From NCBI RefSeq assembly GCF_019456655.1, contig NZ_CP080332.1, positions 4,402,001-4,466,000 on the forward strand: 64,000 nt of DNA, in the 5' to 3' direction. The translations under genes were made by a program, and so were the position numbers. Under the pieces are notes generated by a model. That model was given only the letters and a program-made list of their open reading frames with translations, did no database searches and had not been told where the DNA came from. Shown in pieces: positions 1-60,679 of this stretch. Positions within the stretch are counted from its first letter, which is position 1. Every line of letters begins with the position of its first letter. The stretch is from Mycolicibacterium diernhoferi. GTDB taxonomy: Bacteria > Actinomycetota > Actinomycetes > Mycobacteriales > Mycobacteriaceae.

Positions 1-2
1 CG

Positions 3-305
3 ATCACCACCACCGGGGTCGGGATGCCGGGCGCCAACGCCTACTGGGTGTCCAAGGCCGCCGCCGAACGGCTCTATCTGGGCCTGGCCGAGGACCTCAA
101 GGCCGACAACATCGCGGTGAACTGTCTGAGTCCGTCGCGGGTGGTGCTCACCGAGGGCTGGCAGGCGGGCGGCATGGGCCTCGAGATTCCCCCGGAGATG
201 GTGGAACCGCCCGACGCGATGGGCCGGGCCGCGGTACGGCTGGCCGGTCAGGACGCGGGTGGGGTCACCGGGACCGTGCAACGCTCCGAGGAACTCACCT
301 TCTGA
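3..305 (+). CDS. SDR family oxidoreductase, C-terminal part
   Basis: The 5' end lies outside the window. The visible 100 residues contain the catalytic YWVSK (the Y-x-x-x-K of short-chain dehydrogenases), then the AERLYLGLAEDL helix and VNCLSPSRVV, the usual segment after the active site. It should be an NAD(P)-dependent alcohol/ketone dehydrogenase. Its stop codon overlaps by 11 bases the end of the convergent acyl-CoA synthetase. It stands at the edge of a fatty-acid-like catabolic cluster, so an acyl-CoA or alcohol intermediate is a plausible substrate, but that is inference. The nucleotide-binding half cannot be seen. Confidence 0.85.
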   Translation: MTTTGVGMPGANAYWVSKAAAERLYLGLAEDLKADNIAVNCLSPSRVVLTEGWQAGGMGLEIPPEMVEPPDAMGRAAVRLAGQDAGGVTGTVQRSEELTF

Positions 306-1662
306 CGAACTCGTCGCGCAACACCCGGCGCAGCACCTTGCCCGACGGCAGCCGCGGGATCGCATCGACGACGATCACCCGGCGCGGCCGTTTGTAGGAT
401 GACAGCCGCTCGCCCACCAGATCGATCAGTTCCTGTTCGGCGACCGGTTCGGCGACCGTCACCGCCGCGATGACCGCTTCCCCGTCGGCGCCGTCGGGTA
501 CCCCGAACACCGCACAGTCGGTGACCGCCGGATGTCCGTGCAGCACCGCCTCCACCTCGGCCGGGGCCACCTGGAAGCCGCGGACCTTCACCATCTCCTT
601 GAGCCGGTCGGTGATGCGCAGCCAGCCCTCCTCGTCCAGGTTGCCGATGTCGCCGGTGCGGTACCACCCGTCATCGAATGCCGCACCGGTGTCACCCTCG
701 GGCAGGTAGCCGACCATGGCCGAGGGCGACCGCACCTGGATCTCCCCGTCGGCGGCGATGCGCACCTGCACCCCGGGGACCGGCCTGCCCACCGTGTCCA
801 ACCGTGCGTCACCGATCGGGCAGCACGCGATCACCGGTAGTTCGCTGGCGCCGTATGCCGAGACCCATTGCACCCCAACCCTATCGGTGACCGCCTCGGC
901 CACGCTCCGAGTGACCGGGGTGGCGCACCACATGATGTAGCGCAGCGAGGACAGGTCGTAACGCTCCAGATCCGGATGCGCGGCGATCGCCAACGCGATG
1001 GGGGCGACCGCCATTTCGATGGTGATCCGGTCGTCCTGGATGTGGGTCAGCATCCGGTCGATGTCGAACCGGGGGTGCAGGCGCATCCACGCGCCGGTAT
1101 CCAGAATGGTGGCGATGTTGAGCAGCCCCAGGATGTGCGACGGCGGCGTCATGATCTGCATGCGGTCCTCGGCGGTGAGTCCCAGCGCGGTGCGCCAGTG
1201 CCGCACCGCTGCGGCGAACCCGGCGTGCTTGTGCCGGACGGCCTTGGGCATCCCGGTGGTGCCGGAGCTGAAGACGAACAGCGCGTCGGCATCCGGCGGG
1301 GCCGCCGGCCACACGCCGGCACCCGGGATGATCGGTTCGTCGAGGTGCAGCGTCGGGAGCAACTCGGCGAGCAGGGGTGCGTCGCCGACCCCCAGAACCG
1401 GGTTCGTCAACGCCAGCGCATGCGCCACCTCGGCCCGTTTCCAGCCCGAACTGACCAGCACCACCGCGGCACCGACCCGCCAGATCGCCCGCAGCGCGAT
1501 GACGAACTCGGGCCGGTTCGAGGACATCAGCACGACCCGGTCACCGGCGGTCACACCACGGGCCGCCAGCGCGGCAGCCATCCCGCTGGTCAGGGCGTCC
1601 AACTCGGCCAGGGTGTACTCGCGATCCTCGAACGCGAGGACGGGGCGACTGTTTGCAACCAT
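295..1662 (-). CDS. class I adenylate-forming acyl-CoA synthetase
   Basis: This 455-residue protein of the ANL superfamily should activate a carboxylic acid to its CoA thioester through an acyl-AMP. The P-loop FSSGTTGMPK lies near residue 130. YGASELP (A5) follows, then YRTGDIG (A7), the hinge segment ITDRLKEMVKVRGF, and PSGKVLRR with the acylation lysine near the C-terminus. It is shorter than the usual 500-550 residues because the N-terminal region is compact. The start is the ATG at 1662; a 68-bp gap carrying a palindrome separates it from the divergent ferredoxin gene. The substrate cannot be read from the sequence. Confidence 0.9.
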   Translation of the reverse strand: MVANSRPVLAFEDREYTLAELDALTSGMAAALAARGVTAGDRVVLMSSNRPEFVIALRAIWRVGAAVVLVSSGWKRAEVAHALALTNPVLGVGDAPLLAELLPTLHLDEPIIPGAGVWPAAPPDADALFVFSSGTTGMPKAVRHKHAGFAAAVRHWRTALGLTAEDRMQIMTPPSHILGLLNIATILDTGAWMRLHPRFDIDRMLTHIQDDRITIEMAVAPIALAIAAHPDLERYDLSSLRYIMWCATPVTRSVAEAVTDRVGVQWVSAYGASELPVIACCPIGDARLDTVGRPVPGVQVRIAADGEIQVRSPSAMVGYLPEGDTGAAFDDGWYRTGDIGNLDEEGWLRITDRLKEMVKVRGFQVAPAEVEAVLHGHPAVTDCAVFGVPDGADGEAVIAAVTVAEPVAEQELIDLVGERLSSYKRPRRVIVVDAIPRLPSGKVLRRVLRDEFVRR

Positions 1663-1686
1663 CAGCCCACTACCCTATCCCCAACG

Positions 1687-1701
1687 GAGAATGATATTCT
1701 C
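1687..1701. promoter_or_regulatory. 15-bp palindrome, putative operator
   Basis: GAGAATGATATTCTC has perfect 6-bp arms around a 3-bp centre. It lies in the 68-bp space between the divergent acyl-CoA synthetase and ferredoxin genes, where one bound repressor dimer could control both. The half-site GAGAATG recurs in both 28-bp repeats at 6100-6127 and 6240-6267. TetR-type dimers are typical binders of such sites; no regulator is identified here. Confidence 0.5.
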
Positions 1702-1730
1702 TTTTTGCCAGAATACGATGCCCGGGAGAT

Positions 1731-2030
1731 GTGATGACGGCCGAACCAGTGCCCGCCGACGAAGTGACCATCGTCCTCGACGGCGCCAGCACCACGACGC
1801 TGCCGGTCGCCGGCGACACGTTACTGGAGACCGCTCGGCGGGCCGGACTGACCCCGCCATTCGCCTGCGAAGCCGGTAACTGCGGCACCTGCATCGCCAA
1901 GCTCACCGAGGGCAGCGCCACCATGCGGGTCAACGATGCCCTCGACGAGGACGAGGTCGAAGAGGGTTATGTGCTGACCTGCCAGGCGATTCCCGATCCC
2001 GGGCCGCTGACGGTCAACTACGACGACTGA
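1731..2030 (+). CDS. plant-type 2Fe-2S ferredoxin
   Basis: This 99-residue electron carrier has the cluster ligands of plant-type ferredoxins: CEAGNCGTC (C-x4-C-x2-C, near residues 47-55) and a fourth Cys in LTCQAIP near residue 83. The start is GTG 1731 or the immediately following ATG 1734; GGGAG lies just upstream. No dedicated reductase or oxygenase is visible in the window. It may serve an oxygenase encoded to the left, or another oxidoreductase in this cluster. It is divergent from the acyl-CoA synthetase across a palindromic site. Confidence 0.9.
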   Translation: MMTAEPVPADEVTIVLDGASTTTLPVAGDTLLETARRAGLTPPFACEAGNCGTCIAKLTEGSATMRVNDALDEDEVEEGYVLTCQAIPDPGPLTVNYDD

Positions 2031-2046
2031 CCACGAGGCCGATTGA

Positions 2047-3084
2047 CTACAGGGTCGACTGACTCTCGAAGACCGGCGCCGGGCGGTACTCCGGCACGTA
2101 GCCCTCGATCCTGATCGGGCTGGCCACCAGCCGGAAATCACCCGCGGTCACCACCATCTCCGGGGTGTCCTCCAGTGCCTCCGGCAGCGAACGCACCGCT
2201 GCCGCCGGGATCCCCAGCGGCTTCAGTCGGGCCTCCCAGTTCACCGCGGTGTCGGTGGCCAGCGCCGCGAAGACTAGGGCCAGCAGTTCCTCCCGGCGGG
2301 CGGCCCGTTCGGCCATCGTCCCGAACCCGGCGATGCCGGCCTCACCGGCGAAGGACCGCCAGAAACCGTCGTGCGTGATGAACAGCGCCAGGTACCCGTC
2401 GGCGGTCGGAAACAGCTGCGCCGGAACGTAGTACGAGTGCGCCCCGTACGGGTATCGGCGAGGTTCGGCGCCGTCGTTCAGATACGCGGCCGCCCGGTAG
2501 TTCAACTGCGAGAGCATGACGTCGCGCAGGCACACGTCCACCTGGCCGCCGTGACCGGAGACGATCTTGGCGAGCAACCCCAGTGCCGCGGTCAGGCCGG
2601 TGGAGTTGTCGGCCGCCGAGTAGCCGGGCAGGGTGGGCGGCGCGTCCGGGTCACCGGTCATCGCCGCCACGCCGGTGGCCGCCTGGATGACGTAGTCGAA
2701 CGCCGGATCGTCCCCGCCGTGCAGCCCGTATCCGGTCAGCGCCACGCACACGATCTTCTCGTTGTACCGGCGCAGATTCTCATACGTCAGGCCCAGCTTC
2801 TTGATCGCCGACGGCTTCATGTTCACCAGCAGCGCGTGCGAATCGGCCACCAGCGCACCGAGTTCAGCGCGTCCTGCCTCCGACGCCAGGTCCAGGCAGA
2901 CGCTGCGCTTGTTGCGGTTGAGGCTGGCGAAGTAGCTGTCGCTGACCTGCCGGGAGATCTCACCGCCGGGGGGTTCGACCTTGATGACATCGGCGCCCAG
3001 ATCGGCCAGCAGCATGGTGGCGTACGGGCCGGCCAGCATCACGCCGACCTCGATGACCCGGATGCCGGATAAAGGACCCTTCAC
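2047..3084 (-). CDS. CaiB/BaiF family (class III) CoA-transferase
   Basis: The protein has 345 residues from the GTG at 3084. The N-terminus GIRVIEVGVMLAGPYATMLL and ADLGADVIKVEPPGG are hallmarks of the family, which moves CoA between acyl groups through an aspartyl-CoA intermediate or racemises acyl-CoAs. The Asp in SAADNSTG (near residue 159) is the likely nucleophile. A TTG at 3108 is an alternative start. I prefer 3084 because its GTG overlaps the stop of an 11-codon mini-ORF that itself overlaps the stop of the upstream gene. It shares an operon with the F420-type oxidoreductase and the mutase. It is shorter than the usual 380-400 residues. Confidence 0.88.
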   Translation of the reverse strand: MKGPLSGIRVIEVGVMLAGPYATMLLADLGADVIKVEPPGGEISRQVSDSYFASLNRNKRSVCLDLASEAGRAELGALVADSHALLVNMKPSAIKKLGLTYENLRRYNEKIVCVALTGYGLHGGDDPAFDYVIQAATGVAAMTGDPDAPPTLPGYSAADNSTGLTAALGLLAKIVSGHGGQVDVCLRDVMLSQLNYRAAAYLNDGAEPRRYPYGAHSYYVPAQLFPTADGYLALFITHDGFWRSFAGEAGIAGFGTMAERAARREELLALVFAALATDTAVNWEARLKPLGIPAAAVRSLPEALEDTPEMVVTAGDFRLVASPIRIEGYVPEYRPAPVFESQSTL

Positions 3085-3116
3085 CCAACCACTCTGTTCT
3101 TCGCGCAAGCGCTCAT
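3081..3116 (-). other. 11-codon mini-ORF built on a dispersed repeat
   Basis: ATG 3116 to TGA 3081 encodes MSACAKNRVVG. Its ATG overlaps the stop of the upstream oxidoreductase (ATGA) and its TGA overlaps the GTG of the CoA-transferase (GTGA). The nucleotide repeat at 3096-3117 (GTTCTTCGCGCAAGCGCTCATC on the plus strand) is close to the one at 26681-26702, which has the same architecture. A role in translational coupling is inferred. Confidence 0.45.
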
Positions 3117-4072
3117 CACGACACCTGCTTGGCGAGTTCCGCGATCACCTCACGCGTCCGGTACTTCGACGCGATCAGCTCGTCTCGGTTGTCCCCGATC
3201 GGCAGCAGCCGCACCGACAGGTCGGTGACCCCCGCGTCGGCGAACGCCTTGAACCGCTTGAGGATCGACTCCTCGTCGCCGGCGGCGCACAGATCACCGA
3301 CGGTCCGGGCGTCACCGCGGTCGAGCAACCGCTGGTAGTTCGGTGACGTCTCGGCCTCGGCCAGGATCCGGTTGGCCCGGTCCTTGGCCTCCTCGATCTC
3401 GGAGTTGGCGCACAGCGTGACCGGTATGCCCGCCACGATGCGCGGCGGCGGCTTGCCGGCCTCGGCGGCGGCCTTGTTGATCTTCGGGGCGATGTGCTCA
3501 CCGATGGCCTTCTCGTCGGCCATCCACAGTGAGGTGCCGTCGGCGTGCTCACCGGCGATCTGCAACATCACCGGGCCCAACGCGGCGACCAGCACCGGCA
3601 TCGGGGTCTCGGCGCCGAGCGCGGTCGGGTTGTGCACGGTGAAGGTGTCGTTCTCCACATCCACCGGGCCCGGGCCGGCGATCGCCGCGTTGAGCACCTG
3701 CAGATAGTCGCGGGTGTAGGCGGCCGGCTTGTCATACGGCAGGCCCAGCATGTCGCGGATGATCCAGTGATGCGACGGGCCCACGCCCAGTGCGAGCCGC
3801 CCGCCCGCGACCGCGTGCACCGAAAGCGCTTGGCGGGCCAGCGCGATCGGATGCTGGGCCTGCAGCGGGACCACGGCGGTGCCGAGTTCGATCCGGGTGC
3901 TGTGCGAGGCCATCAGGGCCACCATCGTCAGCAGATCGAAATCGTCGGGTACCTGTGGCATCCACGCGGTGGCCAACCCGGCCGAGTCGGCCCACTCGAT
4001 GTCGGAGATCAGTTTTTTGACCTTGCGGGACATATCGCCCCGCTCGGCCCCGATCATCACGCCCAGTCTCAT
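3116..4072 (-). CDS. LLM-class (F420-dependent type) oxidoreductase
   Basis: This 318-residue protein belongs to the luciferase-like monooxygenase superfamily; in mycobacteria such enzymes mostly use coenzyme F420. Family segments visible are MRLGVMIGAE at the N-terminus, IELGTAVVPLQAQHPIALA, and ALGVGPSHHWIIRDMLGLPYDKP. It begins at ATG 4072, whose ATGA overlaps the end of the B12-binding subunit gene, so the two are probably co-translated. The reaction is unknown; oxidation or reduction of an acyl-CoA intermediate is inferred from its neighbours only. Confidence 0.88.
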   Translation of the reverse strand: MRLGVMIGAERGDMSRKVKKLISDIEWADSAGLATAWMPQVPDDFDLLTMVALMASHSTRIELGTAVVPLQAQHPIALARQALSVHAVAGGRLALGVGPSHHWIIRDMLGLPYDKPAAYTRDYLQVLNAAIAGPGPVDVENDTFTVHNPTALGAETPMPVLVAALGPVMLQIAGEHADGTSLWMADEKAIGEHIAPKINKAAAEAGKPPPRIVAGIPVTLCANSEIEEAKDRANRILAEAETSPNYQRLLDRGDARTVGDLCAAGDEESILKRFKAFADAGVTDLSVRLLPIGDNRDELIASKYRTREVIAELAKQVS

Positions 4073-4476
4073 CAGACGGACTCCCCTGCCGTTTCGGTCA
4101 GTGCGCGCACCTCGGTCACCAGGGTTTCCAGCGCGGTCCCGGTCGGGAACACCGCTGCCGCACCGGCATCGAGCAGTTTCTGCACATCGGACTCCGGGAT
4201 GGTGCCACCGACCACCACCGCGATATCGCCGGCGTCGGCGGCACGCAAGGCGTCCACCGTCCGCTGGGTCATTGCGACGTGCGCACCGGACAGGATCGAA
4301 AGTCCCACCAGCGCAACGTCTTCCTGCAGGGCGATGGACACGATGTCCTCGATGCGCTGGCGGATACCGGTGTAGATGACCTCGAAGCCGGCGTCACGCA
4401 GGGTGCGCGCGACGATCTTGGCGCCCCGGTCGTGGCCGTCCAGGCCGGGTTTGGCGACGAGTACTCGAGTGGCCAT
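4072..4476 (-). CDS. B12-binding small subunit of acyl-CoA mutase
   Basis: The 134 residues form a Rossmann-like cobalamin domain. KPGLDGHDRGAK carries the D-x-H-x-x-G motif whose His replaces dimethylbenzimidazole as the lower cobalt ligand. LSILSGAH (S-x-L region) and VVVGGTIP (GG) complete the signature. The size matches the stand-alone subunits of isobutyryl-CoA and 2-hydroxyisobutyryl-CoA mutases (about 135 residues). It follows the large subunit by 20 bp and overlaps the next gene by ATGA. It needs adenosylcobalamin; a PduO-type adenosyltransferase lies at 60680. Confidence 0.93.
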   Translation of the reverse strand: MATRVLVAKPGLDGHDRGAKIVARTLRDAGFEVIYTGIRQRIEDIVSIALQEDVALVGLSILSGAHVAMTQRTVDALRAADAGDIAVVVGGTIPESDVQKLLDAGAAAVFPTGTALETLVTEVRALTETAGESV

Positions 4477-4496
4477 GGTCTAGAACACTCCCCTTC

Positions 4497-6086
<1,590 letters not shown>

Positions 6087-6099
6087 CACTGGATAACGT

Positions 6100-6127
6100 A
6101 CTTGCAAAAAATGAGAATGCCAATACC
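6100..6127 (+). repeat. 28-bp direct repeat, copy A (promoter/operator)
   Basis: It begins ACTTGCAAAAAATGAGAAT and ends GCCAATACC, and matches copy B at 6240-6267 at 26 of 28 positions. On the minus strand it contains TTGGCA, the proposed -35 of the mutase promoter, with TACGTT 17 bp downstream. On the plus strand it also fits TTGCAA-16-TACCGC. It contains the GAGAATG half-site of the palindrome at 1687-1701. Confidence 0.5.
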
Positions 6128-6239
6128 GCAGACAGGAAATATGCACCCAGATCAGCCACGACAGGCACTCAACCAGGTGGCGGCCATCCCCCGGCGAACC
6201 CCCACCGCCGCGTCGCCGCTGGACATGAGCGAGTATGAC

Positions 6240-6267
6240 ACTTGCTGAAAATGAGAATGCCAATACC
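6240..6267 (+). repeat. 28-bp direct repeat, copy B (promoter/operator)
   Basis: This is the second copy, 140 bp from copy A, in the divergent region between mutase and SDR. On the plus strand TTGCTG, a 16-bp spacer holding GAGAATG, and TACCAT make a plausible SigA-type promoter for the SDR gene. A regulator bound here would block it. Between the copies (6128-6239) I see no gene. Confidence 0.5.
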
Positions 6268-6306
6268 ATCAGGGGAAGCAAGACCCCTTCCGTCCGAGGA
6301 GTCCCT

Positions 6307-7143
6307 ATGTCCAGCGCGCAACGGCCGCTCGCCGATCGAACCCTGGTGGTGTCCGGCGGCAGCCGCGGCATCGGCCTGGCCATCGCCCTAGGCGCCGCCC
6401 GCCAGGGCGCCAACGTGGTGCTGTTGGCCAAGACTGCCGAACCACACCCCAAGCTGCCCGGCACCGTGCACACCGCGGTGGCCGAGGTCGAGGCCGTCGG
6501 CGCCAGGGCTGTGGCCGTGGTCGGCGACGTCCGCAAGGAAGAGGACGTGCAGCGGGCCGTCCACGCCGCGGTGCAGACCTTCGGCGGCGTCGACATCGTC
6601 ATCAACAACGCCAGCGCGATCGCCACCGAGCCCACCGAGTCCCTGTCGGCCAAGAAGTTCGATCTGATGATGGACATCAACGTGCGTGGCACCTTCCTGC
6701 TGACCAGGGCCGCGCTGCCGCACCTGAAGCAGTCCCCGGGCGCGCACGTCATCACCCTGGCGCCGCCGCTGAACCTCAATCCCTACTGGCTGGGCGCGCA
6801 CCCGACCTACACGGTGTCCAAGTACGGCATGACGCTGCTGTCGCTCGGCTGGGCCGAGGAGTACAAGGATTCCGGCATCGGCTTCAGCTGCCTGTGGCCG
6901 CAGACCTACATCGCCACATCGGCGGTGGCGAACCTGGCCGACGGCGACAGCCTGGCCTCCTCATCGCGCAGCCCGGAGATCATGGCCGACGCCGCGGTGC
7001 AGATCCTGACCGGACCGGCCAAGGAAGCCAACGGCCAGACCTACATCGACGCCGACGTGCTGGCCGCCGGCGGGATCACCGACCTGTCCCGCTATGGCGG
7101 TGGCGAGGATCCCATCTGGGATATCTTCGTCGACAAGGAGTGA
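6307..7143 (+). CDS. SDR family oxidoreductase, HSDL2-like
   Basis: The 278 residues contain the NADP(H) glycine motif SGGSRGIG near residue 17, NNAS near residue 100 and the catalytic YTVSK near residue 165. SGGSRG in place of TGxxxG and the C-terminal part resemble hydroxysteroid-dehydrogenase-like protein 2 homologues. The ATG at 6307 has GAGGAG nine bases upstream; a longer frame from 6235 is not needed. It is first in an operon with an acyl-CoA synthetase (9 bp gap) and a small coupled protein, and is divergent from the mutase operon. Confidence 0.9.
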   Translation: MSSAQRPLADRTLVVSGGSRGIGLAIALGAARQGANVVLLAKTAEPHPKLPGTVHTAVAEVEAVGARAVAVVGDVRKEEDVQRAVHAAVQTFGGVDIVINNASAIATEPTESLSAKKFDLMMDINVRGTFLLTRAALPHLKQSPGAHVITLAPPLNLNPYWLGAHPTYTVSKYGMTLLSLGWAEEYKDSGIGFSCLWPQTYIATSAVANLADGDSLASSSRSPEIMADAAVQILTGPAKEANGQTYIDADVLAAGGITDLSRYGGGEDPIWDIFVDKE

Positions 7144-7152
7144 TCAACAGAC

Positions 7153-8652
7153 ATGAGTATCTCGCTGCTGCTGGAAATGGCATCGTCGACCGATCCGGAC
7201 CGGACCGCGATCGTCGCGGGTGACCTGCGTCTGACCACGGGTGAACTCAGCGAACTCGCCGACGGCGGAGCCGGTGTGGTGGCCGCCTCCGGCGCTGCGC
7301 ATGTCGCCTATGTCGGTGCCGGCGGCGCGATGCTGCCCCTGCTGCTGTTCGCCTCGGCGCGTGCCGGGGTGCCGGTCACCCCACTGAACTACCGGCTCTC
7401 GGCCGACGGGCTGCGCGCCCTGATCTCCCGGCTGCCGGATCCGCTGGTGGTGGTCGACGACGAGTACCGCGACGCCGTGGGTGACGGGTTCCGGGTGCTC
7501 GGCTCGGCGGAGTTCCTCACGCAGGCGCGTACCGCCGAGCCGGCGGCCGAATTCCCCGATCCTGACTCGGTCGGCGTGGTGCTGTTCACCTCGGGCACCA
7601 CATCGGCTCCGAAAGCCGTTGAGCTGACCCACAACAACCTGACCAGCTACATCACCGGCACGGTCGAGTTCGCGTCCGCCGAACCCGGGGATGCGGCGCT
7701 GATCTGTGTGCCGCCCTATCACATCGCCGGTGTGTCGGCGGCGCTGTCGAATCTGTACGCCGGCCGAAAGATGGTCTACCTCACGCAGTTCGACGCCCGC
7801 GAATGGGTGCGGCTGGTCGAAGCCGAGAACGTCACCTCGGCCACGGTGGTGCCCACCATGCTGGACCGCATCGTCACCGTGCTGGACGAGCAGGGCGCGA
7901 CCCTGCCCACCCTGCGCACACTGGCCTACGGCGGCTCCAAGGTGGCGCTGCCCTTGGTACGCAAGGCCCTCGAGCTGCTGCCGGGCGTCGGGTTTGTCAA
8001 CGCCTACGGTCTCACCGAGACCAGTTCGACGATCGCGGTGCTCACCCCCGATGATCACCGGGTCGCACTGGGCTCCGACGATGCCGCGGTGGCCAAGCGG
8101 CTCGGGTCGGTCGGCCAGCCGGTTCCCAGCATCGAGGTACAGATCCGCGGCGAGGACGGAACCGTGCTCGGCGCAGGCGAAACCGGTGAGCTGTTCGTCC
8201 GCGGCGAGCAGGTGTCCGGCCGTTACACCGGCATCGGTTCGGTGCTCGACGACCAGGGCTGGTTTCCCACCAAGGATGTGGCGACCCTGGATGAACACGG
8301 CTACCTGTACATCGGCGGACGCTCCGATGACACCATCATCCGCGGCGGGGAGAACATCGCTCCCGCCGAGATCGAGGACGTGCTCGTCGAGCACCCGCAT
8401 GTCCACGACTGCGCCGTGGTCGGCCCCGAGGACCCCGAATGGGGACAGATCATCGTGGCCGTCGTGGTCCCCGTTCCGGGCGCCGACCCGCGGCCGGAGG
8501 ACCTGCGTGACTTCGTGCGGGCGCAACTGCGCGGATCCCGCACCCCGGACCGGGTCGTCTTCCGAGACGAGCTGCCCACCAACGCGACCGGCAAGGTGCT
8601 GCGCCGCGAACTCGTCAGCGAGTTGAGTCCAGCCGCAAAGGAGCCCGCATGA
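7153..8652 (+). CDS. acyl-CoA synthetase (AMP-binding)
   Basis: This 499-residue ANL enzyme forms an acyl-CoA from acid, ATP and CoA. The P-loop is FTSGTTSAPK near residue 145, followed by AYGLTETSS (A5), GWFPTKDVATLDE (A7, where the usual TGD reads TKD), GGRSDDTIIRGGENIAPAEIE (A8), and TNATGKVLRREL with the catalytic Lys. AAGGAG lies 13 bp before the ATG. Its end overlaps the next gene by ATGA. It is the second synthetase of the cluster and presumably acts on a different or downstream acid. Confidence 0.92.
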   Translation: MSISLLLEMASSTDPDRTAIVAGDLRLTTGELSELADGGAGVVAASGAAHVAYVGAGGAMLPLLLFASARAGVPVTPLNYRLSADGLRALISRLPDPLVVVDDEYRDAVGDGFRVLGSAEFLTQARTAEPAAEFPDPDSVGVVLFTSGTTSAPKAVELTHNNLTSYITGTVEFASAEPGDAALICVPPYHIAGVSAALSNLYAGRKMVYLTQFDAREWVRLVEAENVTSATVVPTMLDRIVTVLDEQGATLPTLRTLAYGGSKVALPLVRKALELLPGVGFVNAYGLTETSSTIAVLTPDDHRVALGSDDAAVAKRLGSVGQPVPSIEVQIRGEDGTVLGAGETGELFVRGEQVSGRYTGIGSVLDDQGWFPTKDVATLDEHGYLYIGGRSDDTIIRGGENIAPAEIEDVLVEHPHVHDCAVVGPEDPEWGQIIVAVVVPVPGADPRPEDLRDFVRAQLRGSRTPDRVVFRDELPTNATGKVLRRELVSELSPAAKEPA

Positions 8653-8951
8653 TCAAGAACGGCACCCGCCTGCAGAGCCAGGTCTGCGACACCCAGGTCA
8701 TCGTGGTGCGCGCCTCCGAAGGTCTCGACGACCTGCGCGCCGGTGGCGCACCGCTGGTCCCGGTCGGCGAGGCGGTCACCGAGGGCCTGACGCTCGATCC
8801 CGCACTGTCCGACGGCAACCTGATGGGTAAGCGCTACGTCGACGATGCCGGCGCCGAAATCCTGGTGACCAAGGCCGGCAAGGGCACGCTGAGCATCGGT
8901 GACACCCCGCTGGCGATCAAGGAAGCCAAGCCGCTGCCGGCCAGCGACTGA
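8649..8951 (+). CDS. small protein coupled to acyl-CoA synthetase, unknown
   Basis: The 100 residues have no signal peptide or membrane segment and a single Cys near residue 13. I do not recognise a family. Start and upstream stop overlap as ATGA, so its synthesis is tied to the synthetase. Composition matches its neighbours (Ala, Gly, Leu, Asp), and short beta-rich stretches such as GKRYVDDAGAEILVTKAG suggest a compact fold. It could be an accessory subunit or carrier-like partner, but nothing in the sequence proves it. A strong hairpin follows directly. Confidence 0.75.
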   Translation: MIKNGTRLQSQVCDTQVIVVRASEGLDDLRAGGAPLVPVGEAVTEGLTLDPALSDGNLMGKRYVDDAGAEILVTKAGKGTLSIGDTPLAIKEAKPLPASD

Positions 8952-8960
8952 TTCCCCGGA

Positions 8961-9002
8961 GAAACGAAATGGCTGCTCCCGCAGGAGCAGCCGTTTCGTT
9001 TC
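8961..9002. terminator. strong hairpin between convergent genes
   Basis: GAAACGAAATGGCTGCTCC pairs with GGAGCAGCCGTTTCGTTTC around a CGCA loop: 19 bp with one mismatch (a G-U pair in one orientation). It separates the synthetase operon from the convergent small secreted protein. There is no long T-run, as is common in mycobacteria. It should work in both directions. Confidence 0.8.
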
Positions 9003-9009
9003 AGGGGGA

Positions 9010-9273
9010 TCAGAAGGTGGGCACGAACGTCCCGTTGATCCAGACACCCCAGTGATTCCAACCGGAGTCCCAGACCTGCGGGTTGCCCTGCGCCCAGATC
9101 GGGTCGGCCGGCTTCGGCGGCGCCCAGGCCGGCGCGGTGCTCACCGCGGGGCCGGCCGGCGGCAGAGGCACAGGGGCCTGTTCGGCGCCGGCGGTACCGG
9201 CCATCGCGAACGGGCCGACGAAAAGGCCACCGGCGACTGCGAACCCGACGAGCATCTTCTTCACATTGATCAC
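9010..9273 (-). CDS. small secreted protein, unknown
   Basis: The 87 residues begin with a signal peptide: MINVKK, a hydrophobic core near residues 8-25, and a probable cleavage after AGA near residue 30. The mature part is short, Pro- and Trp-rich, with APPKPADPIWAQGNP and a C-terminal WDSGWNHWGVWINGTF. No Cys is present, so it is not a lipoprotein. Function is unknown; small secreted Pro/Trp-rich proteins of this kind are frequent in mycobacteria. The 128 bp upstream hold no gene. Confidence 0.8.
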   Translation of the reverse strand: MINVKKMLVGFAVAGGLFVGPFAMAGTAGAEQAPVPLPPAGPAVSTAPAWAPPKPADPIWAQGNPQVWDSGWNHWGVWINGTFVPTF

Positions 9274-9401
9274 GTGATCCTCTTCCTGAGCACCTACGAA
9301 AGCGGTTGCCTCGTTGCAACCTGACGTGGCGCTGTGTACCGCGCAGCCACGGCGGGCAAACCTGCCCCGGCTGTGATCTGCGTCATCGAGCCTGTAGACG
9401 G

Positions 9402-10181
9402 TCAGCAGGTGCGTCGCTCGTGCGGCTTCGCGCCGCGTGCGGCCCGCACCACATCGTCGGTGAAACGTTCCAGCAGAAGCGATTGCGTGGCGGCCAGGTG
9501 CTTGCGCGCGATCCGTTCGGCCTCGGCGGCGTTGCCGGCCGCGATCTCGTCGACCAGCCTGCGGTGGGTGCGCACCGCACCGCGGGCCTCGGCCGGTGAC
9601 GGATACTCACCGCGCTTGGCGACGTAGTCGGCCCACTTCTCCTCCTGCGCCGACCACAGCGCCACCAGGCTTCCCACCACATGGCGCACCGTGGCGTTCG
9701 GGGTGTATTCGACGACGAGGTCATGGAATTCGCGTGCGATCCGGGTGAACGCCGCGCCGTCGGCGACCGCCTCCGCGGATGCGTCGACATTGCGGGTGAG
9801 CACCGGCACCACCACCTTGAGCCGGTCGGTACGGCGCGCGACCTCGGCGACACACAGCGGTTCGAGCAGCTGCAGACCCGCCGCCAGATCACCCAGCGGC
9901 ACCGCCGCGCCCTGCAGTGCCAAGCCCAGGTGATACGCCGCCGAGGACTCGTCGGGCCGGTGCACCTCGGCCCCGCCGACGCTGCCTCGGCGCACCGTCA
10001 CCAGGCCCTCGGTCTCCAGGATCCGCAGCGCCTCACGGACCGACGGATAGCTGACACCGAACTCGGTGACCAGCTGGTCCTGGGTGGGCAACCGATCCGC
10101 TCCGGCCAGGATCCGGTCGCGCAGTTCACCGGCGACAGTCTCGGCGATGCGGTGCTGCGGGGTACGGCGGGCCGCGCTCAT
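9402..10181 (-). CDS. GntR/FadR-type transcriptional regulator
   Basis: The 259 residues have an N-terminal winged helix (near residues 10-75: LPTQDQLVTEFGVSYPSVREALRILETEGLVTVRRG). An all-helical FCD-like ligand domain follows, with EFHDLVVEY and RTHRRLVDEI supplying candidate metal/ligand residues. Such regulators usually sense an acyl-CoA or carboxylate. The ATG at 10181 was chosen because the helix-turn-helix begins there; further upstream the frame is antisense to the dehydrogenase. It is divergent from four acyl-CoA dehydrogenase genes over 48 bp containing a perfect 18-bp palindrome, so it most likely controls them and itself. Confidence 0.9.
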   Translation of the reverse strand: MSAARRTPQHRIAETVAGELRDRILAGADRLPTQDQLVTEFGVSYPSVREALRILETEGLVTVRRGSVGGAEVHRPDESSAAYHLGLALQGAAVPLGDLAAGLQLLEPLCVAEVARRTDRLKVVVPVLTRNVDASAEAVADGAAFTRIAREFHDLVVEYTPNATVRHVVGSLVALWSAQEEKWADYVAKRGEYPSPAEARGAVRTHRRLVDEIAAGNAAEAERIARKHLAATQSLLLERFTDDVVRAARGAKPHERRTC

Positions 10182-10195
10182 TCTCGAAATACTAG

Positions 10196-10213
10196 CAATC
10201 CTTGTAAGGATTG
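10196..10213. promoter_or_regulatory. 18-bp palindrome, likely GntR operator
   Basis: CAATCCTTGTAAGGATTG has perfect 8-bp arms and a 2-bp centre, and sits between the regulator start (10181) and the first dehydrogenase start (10230). Its position and symmetry suit a GntR dimer repressing both directions. It differs from the GAGAATG sites elsewhere in the cluster, so at least two regulators are involved. Confidence 0.65.
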
Positions 10214-10229
10214 ACCTACCATCGGCGGC

Positions 10230-11372
10230 GTGGACTTCGAAATGGGGCCGGACGCCGCAGCGCTGCGCGGCGAACTGCGCGACCTGGTGAGAACGCACAT
10301 CCCCGAGGACTATCTGGGCGCCTTCACCCACAACCCGGCCGACCTGGAGACCGCGCAGGCCTTTTGCCGGTTGCTCGCCGAACGCGGGCTGCTGTGCATG
10401 TCCTGGCCGGAGGAGTTCGGCGGGCGGGCCTCCTCCCCCTGGGAACAGACGGTGGTGCGCGAGGAGATGTGGGCCCACCACGAACCCCGCGGCGCGCAAT
10501 ACATGGGCGTCAACTGGGTCGGGCCGATCATCATGCGCCACGGCACCGAGGAACAGCAGCGCACCCACCTGCCGCCCATCGCGCGCGGCGAAGTGATCTG
10601 GTGCCAAGGCTTTTCCGAGCCGGAGGCCGGATCCGACCTCGCCTCGCTGCGCACCTCGGCGGTCCGCGACGGTGACGGCTGGCTGATCAACGGGCAGAAG
10701 ATCTGGACCTCCTACGCGACGATGGCGCAGTGGTGCTTCCTGCTGGCACGAACGTCCAAGCAGGAGAAGAAGCAAAGGGGCCTGACCATCTTCCTGGTCC
10801 CCATGTCGGATCCGGCGATCACCGTGCGACCGATCCAGACCATGATGGGCCCGCACCATCTCAACGAGGTGTTCTTCGACGATCTGCGGGTCACCGACGC
10901 CGATGTGCTGGGCACCGTCGACGACGGCTGGACCGTGGTGCAGAGCGTGCTGGCGTTCGAGCGGGTCGGCATCGCCCGCTACGCCCGCTGCGAGCGCCTG
11001 CTGCAACTGGCCCCGAAAGCACTGGGCGAGTGCTGGTCCGATCTACCCGACGAACTGCGCGGCCGGTGGGCCCGGATGCTGACCCACTGCCGCCGGGCCC
11101 GGCTGATGGCCTACCGCCTGGTGGCCCTGCAGGCCGAAGGGCAGGTGCGCCCCACCGATTCTGCGGCCTACCGCATCGCGGTCACCAAACTCGACCAGGA
11201 CAGCGCCGAGGTGCTCATGGAGATCACCGCCGCGCTGCCGGAAGGGAAGTCGGAGGTGTTCAAGGCAGAGGTCGAGGACCACTGGCGGTATTCGCAGCCC
11301 TCCACGGTGTCCTCCGGCAGCATCGAGATGCAGCGCATCCTGCTGGCCCGCACCCTGCTGGCGGCGTCGTGA
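10230..11372 (+). CDS. acyl-CoA dehydrogenase, large-subunit type (1)
   Basis: The 380 residues show the FAD/substrate signature CQGFSEPEAGSDLASLRT, then INGQKIWTS, and a C-terminal VSSGSIEMQRILLA. It catalyses alpha,beta-dehydrogenation of an acyl-CoA with FAD, passing electrons to ETF. The lead position, directly after the operator, and the GTGA overlap with the next, shorter family member suggest an alpha2beta2 enzyme like the actinobacterial FadE pairs used for steroid side chains and rings. The substrate is unknown. Confidence 0.92.
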   Translation: MDFEMGPDAAALRGELRDLVRTHIPEDYLGAFTHNPADLETAQAFCRLLAERGLLCMSWPEEFGGRASSPWEQTVVREEMWAHHEPRGAQYMGVNWVGPIIMRHGTEEQQRTHLPPIARGEVIWCQGFSEPEAGSDLASLRTSAVRDGDGWLINGQKIWTSYATMAQWCFLLARTSKQEKKQRGLTIFLVPMSDPAITVRPIQTMMGPHHLNEVFFDDLRVTDADVLGTVDDGWTVVQSVLAFERVGIARYARCERLLQLAPKALGECWSDLPDELRGRWARMLTHCRRARLMAYRLVALQAEGQVRPTDSAAYRIAVTKLDQDSAEVLMEITAALPEGKSEVFKAEVEDHWRYSQPSTVSSGSIEMQRILLARTLLAAS

Positions 11373-12289
11373 ACATCGATCTGAGCCCGGAGGCCCGGGA
11401 GTTCGGTGAACAGGCGCTTCGGGCGTTCGAGTCCGCCGGCGGGGACGCGCTGCTGCAACGTGCCGAAGCCGATCCATCGCAACGGGAGTCGCTCGTCGCA
11501 CCGGTGCTCGCCGGGTTGGGCGCCTGGGATCTGGAACCACGCACCGACGCCGACGCCGCCGAAGCGGCCGCCGCCCTGTGCCGCAGCGCCGGTTACTGGG
11601 GGCTGCCCTACCCGCTGGCCGAACGCCTGTCCCGGCCTACCGACATCGACGCCGACGGGCTGATCGTGGTCGCCGGGCCGGCACCGGCCGGCACCATTGC
11701 CGGTGTCGACGGGCATTGGGCCACCGTCACATTGGACGGTCATCGGGCGCGGGTGACGGGCACCTCCGGCGCCCGGACGGCCTTCGTCACCGCACTGCAG
11801 CTGGCCGGCCTCGACGATGCGGGCGACCAGGACGTCGCACTGGCACTGGTGCTGCCCTGCTGGACGCTGCTCGGCATGCTGGACCGTGCCCTGGAACTCA
11901 CCATCGCGCACGTCAAGTTGCGCCAACAGTTCGGCCAGCCGCTGTCGGGTTTCCAGGGCGTGCAATTCCAGCTCACCGACGCCGAGGTCGAACGCAGCGG
12001 CCTGGAGATGCTGGCCCGATATGCGCTGTCCACCGTCACCGGCCCGGACGCGCTCGCCGATGCGCTGGCCCTGCGACTGGCCGCACTGGAGGCAGCCGAG
12101 GTGGTCTTCCGGGTCACCCACCAACTGCACGGTGCGGTCGGGTTCTGCGATGAGACGGTGCTGTCCTGGCTGTCGCGGTACAGCCAGCCCCTGCGCCGAC
12201 TGCCGCTCGGCCTGTCCGCGACACGGGCACAGCTGACCGAACTGCTGGGCACCCGTGGCCTGACCGGACTGTACAGCGACGCGGGATGA
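11369..12289 (+). CDS. acyl-CoA dehydrogenase, small-subunit type (1)
   Basis: At 306 residues this is much shorter than a normal acyl-CoA dehydrogenase (about 380). The middle beta-domain is reduced and lacks the FSEPEAGSD signature, while the C-terminal helical part is kept (LRQQFGQPLSGFQGVQFQLTD, THQLHGAVGFCDE). This is the pattern of the non-catalytic partner in heteromeric FadE enzymes. The GTG start at 11369 overlaps the upstream stop (GTGA), which ties synthesis of the two subunits together. Confidence 0.88.
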   Translation: MNIDLSPEAREFGEQALRAFESAGGDALLQRAEADPSQRESLVAPVLAGLGAWDLEPRTDADAAEAAAALCRSAGYWGLPYPLAERLSRPTDIDADGLIVVAGPAPAGTIAGVDGHWATVTLDGHRARVTGTSGARTAFVTALQLAGLDDAGDQDVALALVLPCWTLLGMLDRALELTIAHVKLRQQFGQPLSGFQGVQFQLTDAEVERSGLEMLARYALSTVTGPDALADALALRLAALEAAEVVFRVTHQLHGAVGFCDETVLSWLSRYSQPLRRLPLGLSATRAQLTELLGTRGLTGLYSDAG

Positions 12290-13467
12290 CCCAGGATATG
12301 ACCCGAAACCTCGAACAGTTCCGCCACCACGTCCGGCAGTGGTGCGCCGAGCATGTGCCCGCCGACTGGCGTGCCGCGCAGACCGGCGTCGGCGACGAGG
12401 AGTACGTCCGGTTCCAGAAGGCCTGGTTCGCCGAACTGCACGCGGCCGGTTTCGCGGTGCCGCATTGGCCCGCCGAGTGGGGCGGCGGTATGTCGGTGGC
12501 CGAGCAGATCGTGCTGTACTCCGAACTCGCCGCAGCCGACGCACCACGACTCGTGCTCGCCTTCGTCGGCATCCACCATGCCGCATCGACCCTGCTGGCC
12601 GCCGGTACCGAAGAACAACGGCAGCGCCATCTGCCGGCGATCCTGGACGGCGAGATCTGGGTGCAGGGTTTCTCCGAGCCCGAGGCGGGCTCGGATCTGG
12701 CCGCGCTGCGCACCAGTGCCCGCCGGGATGGTGATGAGTTCGTGGTCAACGGCCAGAAGGTTTGGGCCAGTGGCGGTTTGCACGCCGACTGGTGTCTGCT
12801 GCTGGCCCGCACCGACCCGGATGCCAAGAAACGGCACGGCATCTCCTACTTCCTGATGGACATGACCAGCCCGGGCATCGAGGTACGTCCGATCCGTCAG
12901 GCCACCGGCGAATCGCATTTCTGCGAGGTGTTCCTCAACGACGTGCGGATTCCCGCGGCCAATCTGGTCGGCCCGGAGAACAAGGGCTGGCAGGTCGCCC
13001 AGGAGACGCTGGGCGCCGAACGCGGAATGACCATGCTCGAGCTGGCCGAACGGCTCGGCAACGCGGGTTTGCGCTGGCTGGTCGACGAATGCGCGCGCGC
13101 CGGCGTACTCGACGATGCGCTGATCGCGGATCGGCTGGCGCAGTTCGACATCGAGACCACCGGGCTGCGCGGACTGTGCCGCGACCTGGTGGAAGGCAAG
13201 ACCAACTCCCCCGCCGACGCCTCGGTGGTGAAGCTGTTCTACAGCGAACTGCTGCAACGGATGACCGACTTCGGCGCCGAGATCAGCGGCCTGGCCGGCC
13301 ACACGGTGTTGGCCAAACCGATCTCCAGCGGCTGGGAGTCCGGCGCCTGGGTGCTCGACTTCATCGGCTCCTGGGAATGGACCATCCCGGGCGGCGCCAG
13401 CGAGATCCAACGCACCATCATCGGTGAGCGCGGTCTCGGCCTGCCCCGCGAACCGGCGGGAGCATGA
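12286..13467 (+). CDS. acyl-CoA dehydrogenase, large-subunit type (2)
   Basis: The 393-residue protein has VQGFSEPEAGSDLAALRTS, VNGQKVWAS and a C-terminal GGASEIQRTIIGERGLGLPR, all typical of FAD-dependent acyl-CoA dehydrogenases. ATGA overlaps join it to the genes on both sides. It resembles gene (1) in domain layout but is clearly not a recent duplicate. I infer it is the catalytic chain of a second heteromeric dehydrogenase, perhaps acting on a shorter intermediate. Confidence 0.92.
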   Translation: MTQDMTRNLEQFRHHVRQWCAEHVPADWRAAQTGVGDEEYVRFQKAWFAELHAAGFAVPHWPAEWGGGMSVAEQIVLYSELAAADAPRLVLAFVGIHHAASTLLAAGTEEQRQRHLPAILDGEIWVQGFSEPEAGSDLAALRTSARRDGDEFVVNGQKVWASGGLHADWCLLLARTDPDAKKRHGISYFLMDMTSPGIEVRPIRQATGESHFCEVFLNDVRIPAANLVGPENKGWQVAQETLGAERGMTMLELAERLGNAGLRWLVDECARAGVLDDALIADRLAQFDIETTGLRGLCRDLVEGKTNSPADASVVKLFYSELLQRMTDFGAEISGLAGHTVLAKPISSGWESGAWVLDFIGSWEWTIPGGASEIQRTIIGERGLGLPREPAGA

Positions 13468-14504
13468 TGACACGCGAATTCGCGGAGTTGCACCAGGATC
13501 TGCGCTCGGTGGCGCGGGATCTGCTGGCCGCAGGCAACCCGGATTGGTCGGTGCTGACCCAGGCCGGCTGGCCCGGTCTGGAGGTCGCCGAGTCACTCGG
13601 CGGCGCGCAGGTGTCGTTCGCCGAAACAGCCGTCGTCGCCGAGGAACTGGGACGCGCCGCGGCCCGCAGTAGCCATCTCGGCGTCAGCCTCGGGATCGGT
13701 GCACTGCTGGCGCTGCCCGCCGGCGAGCATCGCGACGCCGCGCTGTCGGCGGCCGCCGAGGGCACCGACCTGCCCGTCGCGGTGGTGGACACCGAGGCCG
13801 TCGGCGCCTGCCCCGCGTTCACGCTGGCCTCCGACGGCAGTCTGCACGGTGCCGCCGATTTCGTGCCCGACGCCGCCGAGGCGACCCGGCTGCTGGTGCT
13901 CGCCACCGACACCGCCGGCGCGCCGGTGCTGGCCGATCTGGACCCGGCCGGTGCCGGGCTGACCATCGCCGGCCGGCCGACCCTCGATGACACCCGCCGG
14001 CTGGCCGCCGTCACCGCCGACGGGGCGCGCCCCCGCCAGGTGTGGCCGTTCCCCGCGGCCGGGTGGCTGACGGCGCGCGGGGCCGTGAGCATCGCCGTCG
14101 ACAGTCTCGGCCTGGCCGAGGCGATGCTCGCCGCCACCGTCGACTACGTCGGGATCCGCCATCAGTTCGGCCGTCCCATCGGATCGTTTCAGGCCGTCAA
14201 ACACGCGTGTGCCGACATGCTCGTCCAGATCCGGGTGGCGCGCCAACTCGTGGACGCCGCCGTCGACGCGGTGGCCGCGGACCCCGGATCGGGACAGGAC
14301 CCGTCGGTGGCGGCCTCGATGGCAAAGGCGTACGCGACCGAGACCGCGGTCGCCGTGGTCGGCAAGGCCATGCAACTGCACGGCGGCATCGGCTACACCT
14401 GGGAAAGCGGGGTGCACGTCTACCTCAAGCGCGCCACCCTGAACCGGTCCATGTTCGGTTCCCCGGCGGCGCACCGGCGCGTCCTGGCGGCGCGCCTCCG
14501 ATAA
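13464..14504 (+). CDS. acyl-CoA dehydrogenase, small-subunit type (2)
   Basis: The 346 residues have a weak N-terminal domain and no FSEPEAGSD motif, but a normal C-terminal helical domain (YVGIRHQFGRPIGSFQAVKH, GKAMQLHGGIGYTWE, HVYLKRATLN). This again fits the small chain of a heteromeric FadE. The ATGA overlap at 13464-13467 couples it to the preceding large chain. It is the last gene of a four-gene unit. Confidence 0.9.
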   Translation: MMTREFAELHQDLRSVARDLLAAGNPDWSVLTQAGWPGLEVAESLGGAQVSFAETAVVAEELGRAAARSSHLGVSLGIGALLALPAGEHRDAALSAAAEGTDLPVAVVDTEAVGACPAFTLASDGSLHGAADFVPDAAEATRLLVLATDTAGAPVLADLDPAGAGLTIAGRPTLDDTRRLAAVTADGARPRQVWPFPAAGWLTARGAVSIAVDSLGLAEAMLAATVDYVGIRHQFGRPIGSFQAVKHACADMLVQIRVARQLVDAAVDAVAADPGSGQDPSVAASMAKAYATETAVAVVGKAMQLHGGIGYTWESGVHVYLKRATLNRSMFGSPAAHRRVLAARLR

Positions 14505-53652: not shown

Positions 53653-53768
53653 GTGTTCGGCGGTGTCCTACTTTTCCACCCTTTTGGGTAGTATCATCGG
53701 CGCTGGCAGGCTTAGCTTCCGGGTTCGGGATGGGACCGGGCGTTTCCCTGCCGCTATGGCCGCCGTAA
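53653..53768 (-). rRNA. rrf: 5S ribosomal RNA
   Basis: The 5' end TTACGGCGGC pairs with the 3' end CCGCCGAAC. Internal segments GGGAAACGCCCGGTCCCAT and GAACCCGGAAGCTAAGCC are universal 5S loops. The ends are estimated from the terminal helix, accurate to a few bases. Confidence 0.93.
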
Positions 53769-53943
53769 CTTTATTCACCCGTTTCTGGGCGTCCCTCACC
53801 GATGGTGGGGGAAGTGTGTTTTGGTGGTGGAGTGTGTCAACCATTGCTGGTTGATGTGTCCGAGTGTGGTGTGGTTGCGGGCGTTGTTTGAATGCGTCTT
53901 TTTTCTTACACGTGTTTTATCTGCTACCCACGCGTGGTGGGTG
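53769..53943 (-). other. 23S-5S internal transcribed spacer
   Basis: About 175 bases of AT-richer sequence with long T/G stretches lie between the 23S 3' end and the 5S 5' end. No tRNA is seen. It presumably contains the RNase III processing stem. Confidence 0.7.
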
Positions 53944-58983
<5,040 letters not shown>

Positions 58984-60597: not shown

Positions 60598-60679
60598 GCG
60601 GGCCAGTGTATGCACCCGCGGCACCAGTTGGAGAACACTGCGGCGACGATCCCCCGCAGTCCCCCGGTACGGTCTAACC

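Follow-up and report, generated by a model that had tools for sequence, protein, structure and literature searches.

The stretch of DNA analysed here (the window) comprises 64,000 nucleotides of the soil-type mycobacterium Mycolicibacterium diernhoferi (G000:C1:4402001-4466000, where G000 denotes the 6.0-Mb single-contig genome). Genes for a two-subunit B12-dependent acyl-CoA mutase lie near its start, among genes for acyl-CoA ligases, oxidoreductases, a CaiB-type CoA-transferase and acyl-CoA dehydrogenases (ACADs). As judged from the sequences, positions 1-8951 (unit 1) are part of a conserved catabolic module with common control, the mutase is a distinct subfamily with a changed pocket, and an operator common to dispersed operons and to the promoter of its candidate regulator marks a regulon. 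The GntR-type regulator and the four ACAD genes that follow (unit 2) form a unit of their own in both placement and control.

Genes of the locus

The window opens with the 3' part of a short-chain dehydrogenase/reductase gene, SDR-A (3-305, plus strand; PF13561, 33 bits), the 5' end of which is cut by the window edge (whole gene G000:C1:4401565-4402305). It is followed by the acyl-CoA ligase gene FadD-A (295-1662, minus strand; AMP-binding, 190.8 bits) and by a plant-type [2Fe-2S] ferredoxin gene (~1734-2030, plus strand; Fer2, 59.8 bits). The mutase operon lies on the minus strand and encodes the mutase large subunit (4497-6086; PF01642, 654.5 bits; TIGR00641, 660 bits; the ATG at 6086 was checked), the B12-binding small subunit with its DGHDRG motif kept (4072-4476; TIGR00640, 142 bits; PF02310, 91.6 bits), a luciferase-like monooxygenase (LLM)-class oxidoreductase that is probably F420-dependent (3116-4072; TIGR03564, 343.1 bits, cut-off 234.25) and a family III CoA-transferase of the CaiB/Frc type (2047-3108; PF02515, 275.8 bits). 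Unit 1 ends on the plus strand with the PRK08278/HSDL2-like SDR-C (6307-7143; NF006133, 403.5 bits, cut-off 250), the acyl-CoA ligase FadD-B (7153-8652; AMP-binding, 194.9 bits) and small100, a conserved protein of 100 amino acids with no Pfam match (8649-8951). Small100 has 3431 homologues, those named among the 120 listed being called 'hypothetical protein' or 'uncharacterized', and its SQVCDTQVI and MGKRYV stretches are invariant in 20 aligned sequences.

Unit 2 consists of a GntR/FCD regulator gene on the minus strand (~9402-10175, start uncertain; FCD, 56.1 bits; GntR, 51.4 bits) and four ACAD genes on the plus strand with a 4-base overlap at each junction (10230-14504). Alpha-1 (10230-11372) and alpha-2 (12286-13467) each have three ACAD domains, and the nearest solved structures to alpha-1 are Tcur3483 and 4x28; beta-1 (11369-12289) has the C-terminal domain only, and beta-2 (13464-14504) has the N- and C-terminal domains without the middle domain and is IpdE2-like at 141 bits, below the cut-off of 450. 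Because both beta subunits lack a middle-domain match, the quartet is best described as two alpha/beta pairs. At the sequence level, the adjacency of the genes, the domain content of the beta subunits and the structures nearest to alpha are those of heteromeric alpha/beta ACADs of the ChsE4-ChsE5 type.

A first-pass annotation of the window had listed two ligases, two SDRs, a CaiB-type enzyme, an LLM oxidoreductase, a ferredoxin, a split mutase, four ACADs and a GntR regulator. All are present with clear family scores, the ACAD genes being two pairs rather than four independent enzymes, and its count of four or more transcription units can be raised to at least six from the strand switches within 1-14504. 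Its borders fared less well: small100 (8649-8951) was missed and the module continues upstream of the window edge with SDR-B and MeaB and with genes for a DUF35 protein, a thiolase and a hydratase. The catabolic, B12-dependent character that it proposed looks right.

Conservation of the module

Gene order was compared in named loci from the best 80 of 393 relatives, almost all of them Mycolicibacterium or Mycobacterium; flanks end at 10 kb or at a contig edge, so that per-locus gene counts are lower bounds, and two of the loci (L112 and L129) stop before most genes. The mutase is present in 80/80 loci and its B12-binding subunit in 79/80, with the LLM, CaiB, ferredoxin and FadD-A genes in 78/80 each. 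The remaining genes are found less regularly (SDR-C in 68, SDR-B and small100 in 64 each, FadD-B in 61, SDR-A in 50 and MeaB in 48 of the 80). After FadD-A there is a further, distinct ACAD pair, beta' and alpha', with a hydratase (73, 72 and 72 of 80, respectively). This trio is displaced in G000 (G000:C1:2674263-2676979) and also in G034, and in G016 and G022 the ferredoxin, FadD-A, ACAD beta'/alpha', hydratase and MeaB genes form a separate second locus.

Outside the genus, the mutase was found in 36 genomes, of which 12 were picked by hand for long contigs and spread. All 12 have the mutase, the B12-binding subunit and the LLM gene, 11 have CaiB, nine have the ferredoxin and eight each have FadD-A and ACAD alpha'. 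Because it is retained in these genomes, the gene order of the module appears to be old. Within the genus, 60 genomes were sampled, 45 with and 15 without the mutase, and kinship among the genomes inflates all of the following figures. CaiB occurs in 44/45 mutase-positive and 2/15 mutase-negative genomes (the discordant ones are G005, G008 and G044, of which G005 and G008 are fragmented assemblies) and ACAD alpha' in 45/45 and 3/15. The first-pass expectation that the genes co-vary among genomes is thus borne out for the core, with phylogeny as a confounder.

The module is adjoined in G000 by MhpA/MhpB-type ring-cleavage genes, a KstD-like dehydrogenase, a second LLM gene and a hydrolase (G000:C1:4385442-4393726; L004). 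MhpA and MhpB score above their NCBIfam cut-offs, a comparable gene set lies next to the mutase in both G108 and G885, and MhpB lies near the mutase in 5/21 regions of ~40 kb (56 kb for G000), namely those of G000, G034, G055, G108 and G885.

No description of the module, of its operator or of the mutase subfamily was found in the literature searched. In one report, MSMEG_4881 is named as a methylmalonyl-CoA mutase gene (PMC10066036). From gene names rather than from sequence we infer that it is the ortholog of the window mutase, because TIGR03564, the family of the module LLM enzyme, takes its name from MSMEG_4879.

The mutase subfamily and the CaiB-type enzyme

An MM_CoA_mutase domain in the large subunit and a B12-binding domain with a DxHxxG motif (DGHDRG) mark the pair as a B12-dependent acyl-CoA mutase. 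The best PDB match of the large subunit is 2-hydroxyisobutyryl-CoA mutase (HCM; 4r3u, 510 bits), with human methylmalonyl-CoA mutase (MCM) at 475 bits. Residues are numbered below according to MCM, counted by hand from the PDB-chain alignment. The large subunit retains equivalents of Tyr89, Gln197, Arg207 and His244, of which Tyr89 and Arg207 presumably bind the substrate carboxylate. The motifs around these two residues occur in 120/120 and 119/120 of the homologues listed (the best 120 from 8000 candidates scored), whereas HCM has Ile and Gln at the two positions, residues that the window mutase lacks. The retention of the Tyr/Arg pair suggests that the substrate has a free carboxylate next to the thioester that migrates, and so is a CoA ester of the succinyl or malonyl type.

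Five other positions are consistently changed. In all 118 members of the subfamily set (115 of the 120 homologues listed and three loci) Tyr243 is replaced by Ala, His328 by Gly, Gln330 by Val, His364 by Phe and Asn366 by Ala, whereas the same positions are Y, H, Q, H and N in 18/18 other mutases (MutB of G000 and 17 actinobacterial relatives at 51-55% identity). The five MCM and HCM chains aligned also carry the usual residues there. Phe117 is replaced by Leu in 117/118 members, and among the 120 homologues listed a GAH motif is found in 120, MFTAAWDEP in 117 and HTN in none. The 120 include proteins of Mycobacterium, Nocardia, Rhodococcus, Gordonia, Actinomadura, Parafrankia and Streptomyces at 85-93% identity; identity across families is at least 84%, and in the phylum sample the listed identities fall from 85% directly to 55%. 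A MutA/MutB pair is encoded elsewhere in G000 (G000:C1:2912719-2915685) and is 46% identical to the window mutase. A degenerate MutA-like subunit was considered and rejected, as the alignment of the non-catalytic MutA lacks the subfamily pattern. Three quarters of the congeners sampled (45/60) retain the mutase, yet the proteins bear family-level names only, the databases calling the homologues methylmalonyl-CoA mutase (family protein). A pocket remodelled by nature would offer a handle on substrate choice by radical B12 enzymes.

An open reading frame that by eye resembles a cob(I)alamin adenosyltransferase, an enzyme of mutase cofactor supply, lies beside a murA-like gene further into the window (~60677-61267, plus strand).

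The solved structures nearest to the CaiB-type protein are CoA-transferases (150 bits); racemases score 72 bits, and an alpha-methylacyl-CoA racemase was rejected on these grounds. PF02515 is above its cut-off and the Asp of an LRDVML motif, presumably the catalytic position, aligns with an Asp of YfdE, placing the protein among family III CoA-transferases; a second aligned chain has Glu at this position.

A common operator and its candidate regulator

A perfect copy of the operator, GAGAATGATATTCTC, lies in the gap between the FadD-A and ferredoxin genes (1687-1701; G000 4403687). With at most one mismatch, the palindrome GAGAATNNNATTCTC lies inside this gap, or no more than 60 bases from it, in 78/78 loci with both genes, and beside SDR-B/MeaB in 45/45 loci with both genes. 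The 80 loci contain 169 such sites (136 of them perfect). Five mononucleotide shuffles give 0.6, and a first-order Markov model, which also served as the background for the whole genome, predicts 0.9. A reversed-pattern control (3 against 76 sites at up to two mismatches) was discarded as unfair to a palindrome; the Markov expectation was 15 against 67. Ten of the 12 regions from outside the genus have a site with at most one mismatch, perfect in nine, the two without one being G885 and G108.

Nine perfect sites are present in the whole G000 genome, where 0.08 are expected. Besides that in the FadD-A/ferredoxin gap, they precede SDR-B/MeaB (4400751), the displaced ACAD beta' operon (2674227), an operon of an amidohydrolase and a FadD3-type ligase (4308929), a putative secreted protein gene (4314243), an amidohydrolase gene with a divergent neighbour (4337015), an amidohydrolase/Rieske oxygenase pair (4366056) and a TetR gene (4371561), and the last, well outside the catabolic island described below, lies ~220 bases 5' of a gene for a 2-oxoacid:ferredoxin oxidoreductase (4136642). 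The displaced ACAD' operon of G034, like that of G000, retains a perfect operator.

Several of these operons belong to a catabolic island of ~100 kb (G000:C1:4300001-4404000). In it, according to an annotation made mostly by eye, an mce-type operon is accompanied by several P450 genes and by genes for amidohydrolases, FadDs, ACADs and a Rieske oxygenase. The island also holds a 55% paralogue of the module LLM gene (G000:C1:4356522-4357484).

Upstream of the mutase operon lies a half-site variant, GAGAATGCCAATACC (6113-6127), with a second copy of GAGAATGCCAATACC upstream of SDR-C (6253-6267). The half-site GG[C/T]ATTCTC, read on the mutase strand, occurs within 280 bases upstream of the mutase in 80/80 loci, where shuffles predict 0.2.

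The candidate regulator of GAGAATNNNATTCTC is probably the product of the TetR gene (G000 4371632-4372351; PF00440, 30.1 bits, cut-off 24), which has the operator in its own promoter. An ortholog (E <= 1e-60) is present in 45/45 mutase-positive and 5/15 mutase-negative congeners. G016 and G022, the genomes with a split module, each have two TetR copies, one within ~9 kb of each half, and a perfect site lies 142 bases upstream of the copies by the FadD-A/ACAD' halves; in G012 a perfect site lies immediately upstream of the TetR gene.

Control by KstR or KstR2 was rejected: in a scan of 119 kb for both motifs, no KstR2 site was found and the one KstR-like match lies inside an mce gene. The first-pass annotation was therefore right to set the locus apart from the KstR/KstR2 steroid set. 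Mce3R was set aside, its sites being described as larger and non-classical (PMC4482099, PMC11667970). GAGAAT strings in two other papers (a cloning-primer stretch, PMC8228715; a predicted Rv0081 site, PMC4757040) are unrelated to the operator.

The GntR/ACAD unit

The ACAD quartet and GntR gene lie beside the mutase in 11/80 loci (beta-2 in 10/80), and 69/80 have no quartet within the flank. The first-pass treatment of 1-14504 as one cluster is therefore not supported in the form given. The inverted repeat CAATCCTT-N2-AAGGATTG (10196-10213) is a candidate GntR operator, and no GAGAATNNNATTCTC site at up to three mismatches lies between the GntR and ACAD genes of the window. Elsewhere, in 5/5 genomes (L160-L164), the quartet adjoins genes for a second CoA-transferase, an SDR, a Baeyer-Villiger oxygenase (BVMO), a Rieske oxygenase, a second SDR and SMP-30; genes for a thiamine diphosphate enzyme and an aldehyde dehydrogenase are on its other side in 3/5. 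G000 has the Rieske/BVMO cluster without the quartet at 1.60 Mb (L169).

This G000 cluster (G000:C1:1596816-1606864) comprises Rieske, BVMO, SMP-30, TauD-like and CaiB2 genes. The BVMO of L160 resembles pentalenolactone-type enzymes (699.5 bits, below the cut-off of 1100). Elsewhere in the window, a stretch of low G+C content (53655-58980) is an rRNA operon (5S, 23S and 16S, minus strand).

No operator site with at most one mismatch occurs in the six BVMO regions (L160-L164 and L169), and two fully separate units were initially assumed. This was reopened by an operator-like site with two or three mismatches at the SMP-30/SDR promoter of five of the six (L161-L164 and L169, with none in L160); such sites occur in 2.5% (two mismatches) and 5% (three) of random 270-base stretches. 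The BVMO cluster, with the quartet in those genomes, may thus be a weaker member of the regulon, and a functional link between the two units is possible.

Interpretation

Our best overall reading, which in our judgement stands at even chances, is that a TetR-type regulon degrades a branched natural compound by way of a CaiB-type CoA shift and a mutase of the succinyl-/malonyl-CoA type. The regulon would take up and oxidize a hydrophobic compound, as the Mce-type transporter, P450s and Rieske oxygenase of the island suggest, with the ferredoxin feeding an oxygenase; the Rieske enzyme of the regulon is its natural candidate partner. The ligases would form CoA esters, and the alpha'/beta' ACAD, hydratase, SDR and thiolase would shorten them to a branched dicarboxylyl-CoA that blocks beta-oxidation. 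The CaiB-type enzyme could then shift CoA intramolecularly between the two carboxyls, in the manner of IaaL, and the mutase, kept active by MeaB, would interconvert a substituted succinyl-CoA and a substituted malonyl-CoA, shifting or removing the branch, after which oxidation would resume. The LLM enzyme may carry out a redox step near the mutase, with which it shares an operon, and the GntR/ACAD quartet, having landed beside the module, may act in that pathway or in one that feeds it. The presence of CaiB in the mutase operon recalls IaaL and, with the Tyr/Arg pair, suggests this sequence of ligation, beta-oxidation, CoA shift and rearrangement.

A more specific proposal, which we consider tentative and rather doubtful, is that the mutase founds a subfamily performing an undescribed rearrangement once CoA has been transferred within a bulky branched dicarboxylyl-CoA. 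With CoA beside the quaternary carbon of a 2,2-dialkylsuccinate, for example, the product would be an alkylmalonyl-CoA and the quaternary carbon would be removed; a terpenoid-type ring fragment from the Rieske/BVMO cluster could be the source of such a substrate. The lost ribose-side residues might make room for a bulky substrate or reflect another way of holding the adenosyl group. That the MhpA/MhpB-like set supplies an alkylsuccinate is put forward as an idea.

The first-pass annotation, which had proposed the breakdown of a branched or quaternary-carbon acid with a branch-moving mutase, was right in spirit, but the Tyr/Arg pair favours a dicarboxylyl-CoA over a monocarboxylic acid. Its interpretation as a whole is partly supported, and the solid parts are the predicted regulon and mutase subfamily. 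On the more specific proposal, the whole regulon would amount to a pathway that has gone unrecognised across actinobacteria; if the substrate is of the terpenoid type, an aerobic actinobacterial route for disposing of a carbon skeleton that blocks beta-oxidation would be shown.

Several observations weigh against the overall reading. The mutase and SDR-C promoters bear the half-site variant only, and around the TetR copy by the mutase half in G016 there is no site better than two mismatches. Genome-wide, sites with one mismatch (4 against 3.3 expected in G000) or two (63 against 64) are at chance level, so that meaning attaches only to perfect sites and to sites at conserved promoters; of the four G000 sites with one mismatch, three fall inside the same catabolic island. 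In G885 and G108 the four-gene mutase operon occurs in regions of ~40 kb that lack FadD-A, ACAD' and the operator, and these four genes can therefore stand apart from the rest of the module. The co-occurrence of the module genes is confounded by phylogeny, and the intramolecular CoA transfer assigned to CaiB is an analogy. Finally, a place near the adenosyl ribose of MCM is presumed for His328, Gln330 and Asn366, as are the roles of the changed residues.

The degraded operators at the BVMO promoters (5/6 genomes, against 5% of random stretches) lend weight to the view that all of 1-14504, the quartet included, serves a single pathway whose upper part is the Rieske/BVMO cluster, a view that we find plausible while leaning slightly against it. 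Also in its favour is the G000 arrangement, in which the quartet is missing from the BVMO cluster and lies beside the mutase instead, as in 11/80 loci. ACAD alpha-1 occurs in 44/45 mutase-positive and 4/15 mutase-negative congeners, and at 74% identity or more in 27 and 1 (the lower hits are at 56-59%). Set against this are the own GntR gene and inverted repeat of unit 2, the 69/80 loci in which the quartet is absent from the flank, and the lack of sites at up to one mismatch in the six BVMO regions and at up to three in the GntR/ACAD gap.

The remaining alternatives concern the mutase. With Gly, Val and Ala for His328, Gln330 and Asn366 in 118/118 members, the large subunit might have left classical adenosyl-radical isomerization for altered chemistry or be a degenerate B12 enzyme. 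We regard this as rather unlikely, as the substrate-side residues, the equivalent of Glu370 and DGHDRG are kept and MeaB co-occurs, the identity of at least 84% across families argues for a functioning enzyme, and the subunit does not resemble the degenerate MutA. The same retained residues (Tyr89, Gln197, Arg207 and His244), together with MeaB and the database names, would suit a second methylmalonyl-CoA mutase that merely clears propionyl-CoA from the pathway. This is unlikely given the MutA/MutB pair elsewhere in G000 and the replacement in 118/118 members of five residues invariant in 18 mutases; no carboxylase or epimerase gene was noticed in the module, although no search was aimed at one. 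The least probable alternative is a mutase acting on a monocarboxylic branched acyl-CoA of the 2-hydroxyisobutyryl-, isobutyryl- or pivalyl-CoA type. The higher score of 4r3u than of human MCM (510 against 475 bits) is in its favour, as is the resemblance of a ligase, split mutase, MeaB-type protein and GntR regulator to the hcl/hcmAB/meaH set as outlined in PMC7176365. HCM, however, has Ile/Gln where the window mutase has the Tyr/Arg pair of MCM, for which reason the 2-hydroxyisobutyrate pathway is not our leading reading; 13/17 actinobacterial relatives at 50-55% identity carry Phe/Gln and form a separate group, and the GntR gene lies outside the conserved module.

Comparison with known systems

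The KstR and KstR2 cholesterol regulons are TetR-controlled systems of mycobacterial catabolism with heteromeric ACAD, FadD and SDR genes; the operator of the regulon described here is GAGAATNNNATTCTC. The MutAB pair of G000 shares with the window mutase the fold family, the equivalents of Tyr89, Arg207, His244 and Gln197 and the B12-binding motif, but is only 46% identical to it; the window mutase has a separate B12 subunit and replacements of Y243, H328, Q330, H364 and N366. The hcl-hcmAB-meaH system likewise combines a ligase, a split mutase and a MeaB-like G protein, and its mutase structure (4r3u) gives the best PDB score, whereas it has Ile/Gln in place of Tyr/Arg and the layout described includes no CaiB, LLM or ACAD gene (PMC7176365).

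The closest parallel in logic is auxin degradation by IaaL, IaaGH and IaaF in Aromatoleum aromaticum. There, IaaL can shift CoA within phenylsuccinyl-CoA and the IaaGH mutase then gives benzylmalonyl-CoA (PMC8360864, PMC11659651). Like the module, that system has a Frc-type CoA-transferase, a two-gene mutase and an ACAD, which act one after another on substituted succinyl- and malonyl-CoA esters, as proposed for the module (PMC8360864). It differs in being anaerobic and in having no LLM enzyme, ferredoxin or TetR operator in the description, from which the likeness is drawn (PMC8360864). The module would be the aerobic equivalent of the IaaL/IaaGH logic, one that can be tested as such, set in a defined regulon with an operator and a candidate TetR regulator.

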